The notes beneath the pieces are model-generated. The model ran no database searches, was not told the origin of the DNA, and was given only the letters and a program-made list of their open reading frames with translations. A DNA stretch of 33,422 nt. Origin: Methanomassiliicoccales archaeon. Its GTDB lineage: Archaea; Thermoplasmatota; Thermoplasmata; GCA-020350865. Each line of letters begins with the position of its first letter. The first letter of the stretch is position 1. The stretch is from NCBI GenBank assembly GCA_020347705.1, contig CP070739.1, positions 1,974,155 to 2,007,576 on the forward strand, given 5' to 3'. The translations under genes and the position numbers were made by a program. Below, piece after piece: positions 14,293 through 17,223 of the stretch.

Positions 14293-15501
14293 ATGGATTC
14301 AAAGGGAAAATATCTGTCCTTGGTCTCGTACAATCACGCTCTGACACATGGGGTTGTACTTTCCGTTCCCATCGCTGCCAATTACATCCAGGTCGAATCT
14401 GATATGAGCTATACCCCTATATTCATATCCATATCGCTTTTCATATTCGCATACGGTGTCGGCGCCGTTTTCGCAGGTTATCTCATCGATCGCATGGGCG
14501 TGATAAAACCCATGTTCATTGGAATGGTATTGACTACGATCTCAATGTTCGGTCTGAGCCTTTCAAATAATTTTCAATTATTTTCCTTTTGGATTTTAAT
14601 TGCCGGTTGTGGTCTCAGCTTCGCCCATCCATCCGGCCTGACTCTGGTTTCCCAGCTGTTCGTTAAAAATAGAGGAAAAGGCATGGGCACCTTCGGTTTT
14701 ATTGGGCAATTCGGGCAGTTCGTTCCGCCTATAGCGGCCGCTGCCATCGGCAAGTTCTTTTTTTGGAACTACATCTTTTTGGTCTTTCTCTTCCTCTACA
14801 TCTGCGCCCTCATCTTCTGCGGTTTGCTGCTTTCATCCGAGATCAAAGGGGAGGATGTGGAGAAACCAAAGAGAATGGAATACTCCAAAGCACTGGGTGC
14901 TTTGATTTCCGGGATAGTGCTCCTCGTGCTTCTTCTCACGGCCATGAGAGGTAATTATTACAGGGCCATCACATCCGTGCTCACCTACTATTCAAATGAT
15001 GTACTGGAGTTGGATATACTGACAGGCGCGATTTTCCTTTCGGTTATGCTTCTCTTCGGTCTTCCCGGTCACCTTTTGGGAGGACGACTTGCCGATAGAT
15101 ACGGGCCAATAAAACCCCTTGTAGTTTTCAGCGTCCTCGCAGTAATTGGAATACTGCTCTGCCTCAGTCTCAATATCATTCTTTTGGTAACAGGTCTGTG
15201 TATAGTTGGTTTTTCTTTCTTCTCAGCACAGCCTGCAGAGAACGTGTTGACCGCGAATGTGAGCTCTCTTAACGTGCGAGGGACCCTGTACGGACTGAAG
15301 TTCCTCGTGAGTTTCGGCTTCAGTTTTATAGCCCTCATTCTTATCGGAGTGTTCGGGGATATTTACTCTCTGACCATCGCGTTTTTCATCATATTGAGCT
15401 TTGCAGTTGCCACTTTGTTTTCGGTTTTAGTCATTGCCAGGACTTATAAGGGTCCCGAAAAGTCAAAGCCAGAAAAGGATGAAAAATGGGATTTCGAGTA
15501 A
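14293..15501 (+). CDS. Major facilitator superfamily transporter
   Basis: 402 residues from the ATG at 14293. An earlier in-frame ATG exists at 14218, but it would place the start upstream of the likely TATA region (near 14249-14265) and adds 25 residues with no MFS character, so the downstream ATG is preferred. The sequence has about 12 hydrophobic segments and two copies of the MFS motif A: GYLIDRMGVIKP after helix 2 and GGRLADRYGPIKP after helix 8. FAHPSGLTLVSQLF and GKGMGTFGFIGQFGQ resemble the fosmidomycin-resistance/sugar-phosphate branch. The substrate is unknown. A short charged C-terminal tail is cytoplasmic. The inverted-repeat region with tRNA-Leu follows. Confidence 0.85.
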   Translation: MDSKGKYLSLVSYNHALTHGVVLSVPIAANYIQVESDMSYTPIFISISLFIFAYGVGAVFAGYLIDRMGVIKPMFIGMVLTTISMFGLSLSNNFQLFSFWILIAGCGLSFAHPSGLTLVSQLFVKNRGKGMGTFGFIGQFGQFVPPIAAAAIGKFFFWNYIFLVFLFLYICALIFCGLLLSSEIKGEDVEKPKRMEYSKALGALISGIVLLVLLLTAMRGNYYRAITSVLTYYSNDVLELDILTGAIFLSVMLLFGLPGHLLGGRLADRYGPIKPLVVFSVLAVIGILLCLSLNIILLVTGLCIVGFSFFSAQPAENVLTANVSSLNVRGTLYGLKFLVSFGFSFIALILIGVFGDIYSLTIAFFIILSFAVATLFSVLVIARTYKGPEKSKPEKDEKWDFE

Positions 15502-15520
15502 AAATTTTTAATACGAGGGA

Positions 15521-15584
15521 TGGGTGGCCGAGCTTAAGAAATAATTGATTTCCAAGTTTAACTCGGACACGAATCCCTCGCACT
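15521..15584 (+). pseudogene. tRNA-Leu-like hairpin remnant
   Basis: The plus strand reads CGAGGGAT (15521-15528) and ATCCCTCG (15573-15580), an 8-bp acceptor-like helix. Inside it GTGGCCGAG looks like a Leu/Ser tRNA D-arm, and CCGAG/CTCGG form a second stem. There is no proper anticodon arm or T stem and the length is about 60 bases, so it is not a working tRNA. Its 3' end (15573-15584) is an exact inverted copy of the 3' end of the real tRNA-Leu, including the discriminator base and two trailer bases (15608-15619). A TTTTTAATA box at about 15506-15514 could drive transcription. It could alternatively act as a hairpin terminator for the transporter gene. Confidence 0.45.
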
Positions 15585-15609
15585 GATAAAATTAATATAA
15601 AATCAAAAG

Positions 15610-15694
15610 TGCGAGGGATGGGATTCGAACCCAAGAACTCCTTCGAGACAGGACCCTGAATCCTGCGCCGTTGACCAGGCTTGGCTACCCTCGC
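15610..15694 (-). tRNA. tRNA-Leu (anticodon CAG)
   Basis: On the minus strand an 84-base cloverleaf plus discriminator A: acceptor GCGAGGG / CCCTCGC, D-arm GCC...GGC with CTGGTC in the loop, anticodon stem CAGGA / TCCTG with loop TTCAGGG (anticodon CAG), a long class II variable arm with a CTC/GAG stem, and T-loop TTCGAAT in a GGG/CCC stem. The outermost T-stem position is a T-T mismatch. There is no intron and CCA is not encoded. It reads CUG leucine codons. No convincing TATA box is seen upstream; the upstream DNA is instead made of elements that repeat the tRNA's own first 13 bases. Confidence 0.93.
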
Positions 15695-15824
15695 ATTCAG
15701 GCGAATGGAAGTTGAGAGGATACCAACATTTTCGAAAGCCTGGCAGGCCAGGCTCCGAAGACAAATCATTGGTTTGTCGAGGCTAAGAGGTGACCAGAGG
15801 TCGCCTCGATGTGGCTACCCTCGC
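15695..15824 (-). repeat. tRNA-Leu-end repeat unit 1 (three-hairpin element)
   Basis: The unit ends (plus strand) with TGGCTACCCTCGC at 15812-15824, identical to the last 13 bases of the tRNA gene at 15682-15694; on the minus strand each is GCGAGGGTAGCCA. Inside the unit are three strong hairpins: AGCCTGG/CCAGGCT (15737-15754), GACAAATC/GGTTTGTC (15760-15778, one G-U pair) and GAGGTGACC/GGTCGCCTC (15787-15807, one G-U pair). A 12-base outer helix, GAGGATACCAAC (15716-15727) with GTGGCTACCCTC (15811-15822), matches at 9 of 12. This gives a closed multi-branch fold. Whether it is transcribed is unknown. Confidence 0.6.
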
Positions 15825-15952
15825 ATTACGACATATGATATCTAAGAGGGTGGCCAAGCTTGCTCCCGTAGGAAACCGATTCCTTTTGCATAGTGTGAAG
15901 GTTTCCGAGGGTCAGTGCCATCCGAAGGATGACATCAGATGGCTACCCTCGC
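15825..15952 (-). repeat. tRNA-Leu-end repeat unit 2 (hairpin element)
   Basis: The third copy of TGGCTACCCTCGC lies at 15940-15952, 128 bases from the second, which is itself 130 bases from the first. The unit has an outer helix GAGGGTGGCCA (15846-15856) with TGGCTACCCTC (15940-15950), 10 of 11 matched, and inner stems GGAAACC/GGTTTCC (15871-15877 with 15900-15906) and CATCC-GAA-GGATG (15919-15931). The internal sequence differs from unit 1 although the architecture is alike. Its outer end supplies the stop codon of the TPR gene. Confidence 0.55.
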
Positions 15953-17223
15953 GTGAGTGCCTTTTCCTTTTCGAAACTTGCACCTGTATGCTCGGGCTTC
16001 CTTTTAAGGACTTCGTCAAAGGACTCTAATGCCTCACTGCTTCTGTTGACCTTCATAAGGGCCTTTCCTTTCTCAAACCATAAAGTGATATTCTCAGGAT
16101 CGAGCTGTAAACCGAGGTCAAAGCATCTCAAGGCCTCCTCGAACCTGCCTTCGGCCGCCATCAATCTACCTCTCTCGTACAAGGCATTGATGTCTTCGGG
16201 TTTTAGCTCTAGTATCTTATCAAAGCATTCAATGGCTTTTGCTGTATCACCATTTTTTCCGAGCAATAAGCCCTTTTTATACCAGGCCATCCTGTAGCTT
16301 GGCTTGATCCTTGCTGCTTGTTCGTAACATTCCAGAGCAGAACCGTTAACATCCTTCTTCTCGAATAAAATACCTTTAGCACACAGCACTTCCACATAAT
16401 TTGGGTCGATCTCCAAAGCTGTCTCGAAGCATTCCAGTGCTGCATCAAGCCTGCCTAGGCTCATCAGGGCCATACCTTTTCCATGCCAAAAAAGGTTGTT
16501 TTCTGGGACCAAATCCAGGGCTTTATCGTAGCACTTGATCGCTATCCTAGGCATCTTCATCTTTAAAAGGGTATATCCCTTCACATACCATGATCTGCTG
16601 TCATTGCGCTCCATTGAAAGGGCCTCGTTGATACTGTTTAGGCTCTCCTGGAACATGTTCATTTTTAGGAGGGTGATAGCTTTGTTGTAACACGCAACAT
16701 GACTCTTTCTTAATTCCATGGCCTTATCATAGCATTCAATGGCCTTTTGAAAGTCCTTTTTTTGTGCAAGTGCCATTCCCTTGCAGTTCCAGGCATACGC
16801 ACTGTTGTCTTTGACCTTCAAGGCCCTGTCGTACCAACTTATCGCATCCTCGTATTTTTGTTTATCGAACGCTGATTTACCCTTTTCAATGAGGGAGAAG
16901 AAATCCTTGCTCTCCAAGAACTCCTCTGAGGTGTACTCCCTTCCACATATGGAGCATTTTCCAACCCTTTTCGCGCAGCTTTCATGAGATATATGGCCGC
17001 ATTCGCATTCAAAATACTCGCCTTCATCCTTTATGAAGCCCAGACAGATATAACATCTCTCTTCAACACCAGTTGATGAAGCTGGTACGATGGAGGGTAC
17101 TTGCCCTTTGGACGATGGTTTTTCATCTAAATTCTTGTACTCCCTGCAGACCTTGCAGTACCAACTCGTGTATTTCTCGATGTATTTTAGCTCTGATCCG
17201 CACTGAGAACATCTGTCATTCAC
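15943..17223 (-). CDS. Zinc-ribbon, RING-H2-like and TPR-repeat protein
   Basis: 426 residues from a GTG start, supported by GGGGGAG about 10 bases upstream. N-terminus: a zinc ribbon with C5/C8 and C23/C26. A second metal site follows: C57-x2-C60-x12-C73-x3-H77-x2-H80-x2-C83-x6-C90-x2-C93, which fits the RING-H2 consensus ligand for ligand. RING-H2 domains in eukaryotes recruit E2 enzymes; in archaea such a domain may only be a protein-binding zinc finger. From about residue 105 to the end there are about nine TPR units of 34 residues (for example AIECYDKAMEL, ALECFETALEIDPN), a protein-interaction superhelix. No membrane segment is seen, so it is cytoplasmic. The last codons and stop (ACG CGA GGG TAG) lie in the tRNA-end repeat, so the native C-terminus may have differed. 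Confidence 0.85.
   Translation of the reverse strand: MNDRCSQCGSELKYIEKYTSWYCKVCREYKNLDEKPSSKGQVPSIVPASSTGVEERCYICLGFIKDEGEYFECECGHISHESCAKRVGKCSICGREYTSEEFLESKDFFSLIEKGKSAFDKQKYEDAISWYDRALKVKDNSAYAWNCKGMALAQKKDFQKAIECYDKAMELRKSHVACYNKAITLLKMNMFQESLNSINEALSMERNDSRSWYVKGYTLLKMKMPRIAIKCYDKALDLVPENNLFWHGKGMALMSLGRLDAALECFETALEIDPNYVEVLCAKGILFEKKDVNGSALECYEQAARIKPSYRMAWYKKGLLLGKNGDTAKAIECFDKILELKPEDINALYERGRLMAAEGRFEEALRCFDLGLQLDPENITLWFEKGKALMKVNRSSEALESFDEVLKRKPEHTGASFEKEKALTRG

Follow-up and report, generated by a model that had tools for sequence, protein, structure and literature searches.

Hairpin cassettes built from direct and inverted copies of tRNA ends flank tRNA genes in Thermoplasmata

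The ends of tRNA genes in Thermoplasmata carry a widespread class of fold-back cassettes, recognizable by their anatomy, by the match of their arms to the adjacent tRNA and by their recurrence from gene to gene. The cassettes are described here starting from the tRNA-Leu(CAG) locus in a 33.4-kb stretch of a Methanomassiliicoccales archaeon (G000:C1:1974155-2007576; hereafter the window), which belongs to a 3.2 Mb genome assembled as a single contig (G000). As an overall explanation we propose duplication by fold-back template switching, combined with transcription of the flanking hairpins, and we see about an even chance that this account is right.

The sequence TGGCTACCCTCGC occurs exactly at 15682-15694, 15812-15824 and 15940-15952, with spacings of 130 and 128 bases, in agreement with an original prediction of three copies about 129 bases apart. 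The window contains no further match with up to two mismatches permitted (0.34 expected), and three matches were reached in none of 100 dinucleotide shuffles of the window. The copy at 15682-15694 is the 5' end of tRNA-Leu(CAG), which is encoded on the minus strand; in tRNA sense, the 13-mer reads GCGAGGGTAGCCA and corresponds to tRNA nt 1-13. When the 300 nt upstream of this gene were shuffled (dinucleotides preserved), an exact copy of the 13-mer appeared in 0 of 5000 trials, as did the 13/14 antisense match that is also present there.

The two extra copies had been predicted to close elements of their own through an outer helix, the interiors differing while the architecture is kept. Two additional elements closed by tRNA ends are indeed present in the window (leader units 2 and 3; Table 1), and on each strand both are more stably folded than dinucleotide-shuffled sequence (z of -4.6 and -4.7 for unit 2, -3.4 and -2.8 for unit 3). 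Absent from the prediction were the orientation in tRNA sense, in which the 13-mer copy is the 5' arm and antisense segments at 15714-15727 and 15844-15859 are the 3' arms, as well as the mirror-image trailer (15512-15584) and the recurrence at other tRNA genes.

In tRNA sense, a leader consists of the direct copy of nt 1-13 (M), hairpins, an arm antisense to nt 3-16 (A) and a linker, followed by the tRNA. Two leaders stand in tandem in the window: unit 3 (from 15952 to 15844, with two hairpin regions between M and the inverted arm), a linker, unit 2 (from 15824 to 15714), and a second linker leading to the tRNA gene. Given its complementarity to tRNA nt 3-16, arm A is able to pair with M or with the tRNA itself. 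The trailer, read from 15584 to 15512, starts with the inverted 3' end AGTGCGAGGGAT and closes with a direct copy of the 3' end. An Rfam search of positions 15400-16100 returned nothing above the curated threshold except the tRNA (RF00005). The upstream TPR gene terminates at the TAG of GCGAGGGTAG, inside the outermost 13-mer, and a relative, G001, has the same junction (window 15940-15972). The tRNA probably once overlapped the end of the TPR gene, before cassette insertion.

Table 1. Features of the tRNA-Leu(CAG) locus, in window coordinates.
Feature	Position	Strand	Evidence
tRNA-Leu(CAG) gene	15610..15694 (ARAGORN: 15609-15694)	-	ARAGORN; Rfam RF00005, 45.1 bits
tRNA nt 1-13, GCGAGGGTAGCCA	15682..15694	-	sequence
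Linker from leader unit 2 to tRNA, ends ..CGCCTGAAT	15695..15713	-	sequence
Leader unit 2: direct copy, hairpins, inverted arm	15714..15824	-	R2 48.5 bits; fold z -4.7 on minus strand
Unit 2 5' arm, direct copy of tRNA nt 1-13	15812..15824	-	exact match
Unit 2 degenerate inverted arm GTTGGTATCCTCTC	15714..15727	-	folds with 5' arm
Leader unit 3: direct copy, hairpins, inverted arm	15844..15952	-	R2 105.3 bits (R2 training sequence); fold z -2.8 (other strand -3.4)
Unit 3 5' arm, direct copy of tRNA nt 1-13	15940..15952	-	exact match; contains stop (TAG) of TPR gene
Unit 3 inverted arm GCTTGGCCACCCTCTT	15844..15859	-	antisense to tRNA nt 3-16, one mismatch
Trailer	15512..15584	-	R1 76.9 bits (R1 training sequence); inverted repeat; trailer alignment
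Trailer inverted 3' arm	15573..15584	-
Trailer core GTTAAACT..TCTTAAGC		-
Trailer direct copy of tRNA 3' end	15512..15524	-
Upstream TPR-repeat gene, stop codon within outermost 13-mer	15943..17223	-	same junction in G001

The architecture is not the local peculiarity of tRNA-Leu(CAG) that the prediction implied; roughly half of all tRNA genes in the genus carry it. Working from a list of all tRNAs, we compared flanks gene by gene in G000 and its congener G001 (63 tRNA genes), with swapped tRNAs as the control. Upstream copies of the 5' end exceeded every swapped-tRNA control at 28 of the 63 genes, and downstream copies of the 3' end did so at 30 of 63. For antisense arms, the control was beaten at 12 genes (5' arms) and 13 genes (3' arms). 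In an internal control, an atypical cluster of tRNAs in G001, each of the four arm types scored 0 of 17. This dense cluster of 17 atypical tRNA genes (L058, G001:C1:4640571-4643566) lacks flanking cassettes and is perhaps viral, plasmid or contaminating DNA.

Further tRNA-Leu genes in both genomes bear the same leader as tRNA-Leu(CAG). M and A track the 5' sequence of each gene (e.g., GCGGGGG for GCGAGGG, and GTAGCT for GTAGCC), and in most Leu leaders arm A, complementary to tRNA nt 3-16, exceeds the 13-nt copy M. The gene for tRNA-Leu(GAG) has a leader in G001 and none in G000. Since its promoter region is conserved in both genomes, the cassette is positioned between promoter and tRNA. A tRNA-Leu gene of G001 (L028, G001:C1:4239743-4239855) has about 30 nt of extra sequence around the D loop relative to the G000 tRNA at 2121088; this may be an intron in an unusual place.

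Units are about 65-185 bp in length. Within the tRNA, leader copies break off at nt 11-13 or 18-22 (D arm); for trailer copies, most breakpoints lie 11-22 nt from the 3' end (T arm). When flanks were included in the search, the copies were mostly found to continue into the flank, as duplication of flank plus tRNA end would produce. An apparent start of the copies exactly at mature nt 1 was an artefact of using the tRNA alone as the query, and we withdrew templating by the mature tRNA end because most copies run into the flank. Antisense arms covered the last 10 nt in 12 of 22 detected cases. A fresh direct duplication of 64 bp, its copies separated by a 46-bp insert with a hairpin, is seen at the tRNA-Phe gene of G001. 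At this locus (L071, G001:C1:3438780-3438996), the duplicated segment comprises 44 nt of flank and 20 nt of tRNA-Phe, and the insert hairpin is CGTGGCGC..GCGCCACT.

The trailers form a family. Twenty-five aligned examples share an outer arm helix, a 3x3 internal loop, an 11-bp inner stem and the apical motif GTTA..T....TCTTAA. In the stem, 87% of cells are paired (at most 45% when slid), and the covariation score is 0.584 versus 0.193 for shuffled data, with changes almost all from one Watson-Crick pair to another. A model built from this alignment (R1) identifies about 35 copies in G000, 63 in G001 and zero in G002, a genome of the same order; almost every copy in the first two genomes sits at a tRNA 3' end. 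Among the best 60 hits, placed relative to tRNA positions of which 15 were read by eye, 56 lie within 700 nt 3' of a tRNA and none 5'; the orientation is sense for 52 and opposite for 4. Tandem arrays reach about six copies. Several arrays have the inverted end at the first unit only and the direct end at the last only, and at several loci the core is flipped. A search of 2.9 million viral contigs for the core pattern found no match, and the search of GTDB r220 genomes, which may omit the window genome's own records, returned the specific pattern in CP070751.1 only. Elsewhere, five weak R1 matches with near-identical scores (G041, contigs C2, C15, C35, C38 and C58) are probably a dispersed repeat of another kind; weak hits were also seen in G032.

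Conservation and covariation in relatives, which the original prediction had proposed to look for, were both found. A Leu leader lies directly upstream of tRNA-Leu in the two congeneric genomes and in one genome of another family, G002. In the seven Leu leaders of G000, G001 and G002, compensatory changes accompany a shared outer M:A helix and a pair of shared inner helices (covariation 0.257 versus 0.169 shuffled). In addition to this leader of the same fold, G002 has cassettes of this layout at 9 of its 17 tRNA genes, their cores being unrelated. A model of the Leu leader (R2, with unit 3 of the window among the training sequences) detects leaders in 3 of 150 genomes of the class, namely these three alone, and at tRNA-Leu genes. 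In other families of the phylum the layout is sporadic and occurs at single tRNA genes, in some cases as near-identical tandem copies. It is present at 1 of 21 tRNA genes in G014 and at 0 of 16 in the class-mates G026 and G033. Upstream of a tRNA-Leu gene in G013 (L184), an antisense arm, TGGCTACCCTGC, occurs in a near-identical tandem repeat of about 70-80 nt, in which no direct copy was detected.

Several features bear on whether the signal is at the level of RNA or DNA. Leaders and trailers lack the sense-strand folding advantage of tRNAs (sense:antisense 16:28 for leaders and 12:13 for trailers versus 67:15 for tRNAs). The inner stems of trailers contain one G-U in 225 cells, compared with about 9% G-U pairs in tRNAs. 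Isolated G-U versus A-C mismatches number 11:14 in leaders, 0:5 in trailers and 13:8 in tRNAs, counts too small to settle the strand. Substitutions between orthologues affect 10/88 in the inner stem versus 22/100 in the loop (p 0.08, suggestive only). Joint folds of leader and tRNA, predicted for unmodified RNA at the level of secondary structure, differ by 0-7 kcal/mol from the native tRNA plus a separately folded leader, and A pairs with the tRNA in about as many of them as it pairs with M. We favour fold-back duplication at the DNA level as the origin because sense bias is lacking, G-U pairs are nearly absent from trailers, cores are flipped and tandem copies are identical. Flipped trailer cores, recent tandem copies and the tRNA-Phe duplication of G001 show that a DNA-level process is active. 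Some cassettes, such as the Leu leader and the trailer hairpin, seem to be maintained for their structure, since the trailer core is side-specific and the Leu leader is conserved.

Template switching is a documented route to the creation and maintenance of hairpins, and the mechanism makes inverted copies of nearby sequence (PMC8794818). In the pathway that we envisage, replication through a tRNA gene would halt in the D arm when approaching from the 5' side, or in the T arm when approaching from the 3' side. The nascent strand could then fold back and copy itself, giving the inverted arm, and on returning to the original template would recopy the linker and the tRNA end, giving the direct copy. 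One fold-back switch with return would generate X - loop - X' - linker - X, a leader, and its mirror image would be a trailer. Outward from either tRNA end, the observed order is the end, a short linker, the inverted copy, the hairpin core and the direct copy, sometimes in tandem. Tandem duplication between direct copies would build arrays, and recombination between direct copies would delete the cassette. The direct copy may divert the antisense arm from the tRNA itself, so that the gene would stay functional.

Fold-back is supported by the arms, which match the host tRNA (at 28 of 63 genes on the 5' side and 30 of 63 on the 3' side, versus 0 of 17 in the control cluster). Against its simple form, the cores of 25-100 nt exceed a simple turn-around loop, and we saw no intermediate that revealed a source for the inverted arm. 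A single fold-back switch alone explains neither cores of this length nor how one trailer core came to be present at tens of tRNA genes. The occurrence of that core (GTTAT..TCTTAA) on the 3' side only and mostly in sense is more order than pure mutation predicts, and the compensatory changes by which the Leu leader fold is kept between families point to selection on structure. The cassettes are probably transcribed as hairpins flanking the pre-tRNA, because they are sited between the promoter or upstream gene and the tRNA, or just behind the tRNA. For leaders, transcription is probable from the sequence context, and it is plausible that cassettes are retained as transcribed pre-tRNA hairpins. 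The chain of tRNA-ended RNAs that the original prediction foresaw is possible for the window.

It is possible, if somewhat unlikely in our estimation, that the cassettes are selected RNA elements, i.e., leader and trailer hairpins that control folding or processing of the pre-tRNA. In this reading A can pair with either the direct copy or the tRNA end, and the leader would serve as a switch between two states or as a helix that acts as a decoy for RNase P and RNase Z. The location of leaders downstream of a promoter or of the TPR gene is consistent with this, as are the length of A (nt 3-16) relative to the 13-nt M in most Leu leaders and the predicted gap of 0-7 kcal/mol between A-on-tRNA and A-on-M states. 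Conservation of the Leu leader fold over two families, covariation in the trailers and the 3'-side specificity of the trailer core also argue for it. However, there is no bias in stability towards the sense strand and almost no G-U in trailer stems, flipped cores are tolerated, and the orthologous tRNA-Leu(GAG) of G000 has no leader; moreover, cores are unrelated between families and many members of the class have no elements. Still broader, and in our view unlikely, is a general cis-regulatory architecture of tRNA genes in Thermoplasmata, in which every pre-tRNA would bear, at either or both of its ends, sense and antisense copies of that terminus as a two-state switch for the folding of the tRNA end and its cutting by RNase P/RNase Z, and the cores would be interchangeable sensor or timing domains. 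Loss of RNase P was considered separately as a reason for special leaders and was rejected, as RNase P RNA is present.

The original prediction had offered either selected RNA structures or repeated insertion at a tRNA end. Insertion came nearest, but plain insertion leaves unexplained an inverted arm that matches the tRNA. Mobile palindromic elements that duplicate tRNA ends as target sites, possibly by way of Y1 (HUH) transposases or tRNA-targeting integrases, would account for the inserts between direct copies, for a trailer core present in about 35 (G000) and 63 (G001) copies nearly all at tRNA 3' ends, and for presence versus absence at an orthologous locus; five matches to Y1 (HUH) transposases were found in each of the two genomes. 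However, the terminus of such an element would be constant, whereas the inverted arm varies by locus and matches the local tRNA. Several unrelated cores share one layout, none of the listed trailer hits adjoins a Y1 gene, and the core pattern is absent from the 2.9 million viral contigs. We consider this origin quite unlikely. Very improbable is the decay of tandem tRNA duplicates, the arms representing the two acceptor strands of pseudo-tRNAs. The repetition of tRNA ends beside the tRNA and an outer helix resembling an acceptor stem are compatible with it, but it is contradicted by the coordinates of the arms (in leaders the inverted arm is complementary to nt 3-16 or 8-22, past the acceptor stem) and by the tRNA-Val trailer, whose inverted arm GGACCGGAC complements the 3' end exactly and does not copy the 5' strand GGGCCGG. 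The interiors also lack tRNA arms. Fold-back duplication is preferred over plain insertion because the inverted arm matches each tRNA.

Within the literature searched, we found no paper describing repeats of this layout at 5' ends, at many tRNA genes and in archaea. REP sequences and IS200/IS605-associated palindromes are short dispersed hairpins in genomes that encode Y1 transposases. Unlike REP or MITE palindromes, the cassettes have arms derived from the adjacent tRNA, have no constant termini and are confined to tRNA flanks. Also unlike REP and IS200/IS605 systems, they showed no link to a transposase gene (Y1 genes occur in G000 and G001, none next to the listed trailer hits). Regulatory tRNA leaders and trailers such as 3'ETS-leuZ are transcribed flanks of pre-tRNAs that could become separate small RNAs, and flanks of this type are not known to be built from copies of tRNA ends. 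Like hairpins made by template switching, the cassettes have inverted copies of nearby sequence that give perfect stems, and show multi-base Watson-Crick compensations; unlike those described, which are changes within RNA genes, they are whole cassettes beside tRNA genes with a second, direct copy of the tRNA end (PMC8794818). Cassettes of mutational origin would amount to a dense natural record of how template switching by fold-back acts on tRNA genes, in dozens of cases with defined breakpoints, and would help to explain how perfect RNA hairpins originate. Functional cassettes would add a new layer of control on tRNA supply that is based on each tRNA's own sequence.

The original prediction knew of no described family with such a layout, which needs correction, as the distal repeats of E. 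coli tyrT have the trailer version. Behind tyrV of E. coli MG1655, the final 19 nt of tRNA-Tyr are repeated at +159, +337 and +515, in 178-bp units that also hold an inverted arm, GGGGAAGGAT; the tyrT/tyrV repeats (rtT) are annotated as RttR and tpr. The order of tRNA end, linker, inverted end, core and direct end, in tandem, is that of our trailers. Direct copies of the 3' end are matched at 30 of the 63 tRNA genes of the genus (in the window at 15512-15524), and the inverted 3' end of each unit is matched in the window at 15573-15584. Not matched is the restriction to 3' units of about 178 bp, as leaders here hold 5'-end copies and units span about 65-185 bp. In E. coli, as far as examined, the repeats are limited to one operon and to the 3' side, whereas here both ends and many genes are involved, with short cores, other sequences and an archaeal host. 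Processing of the E. coli tRNA liberates the tyrT unit as a small RNA. With the window and its relatives, the tyrT pattern comes to include 5' ends, many tRNA genes and archaea. Whether the cassettes are mutational or functional, the flanks of tRNA genes in these archaea are more than neutral spacers, and the E. coli tyrT repeats are an instance of a wider pattern.
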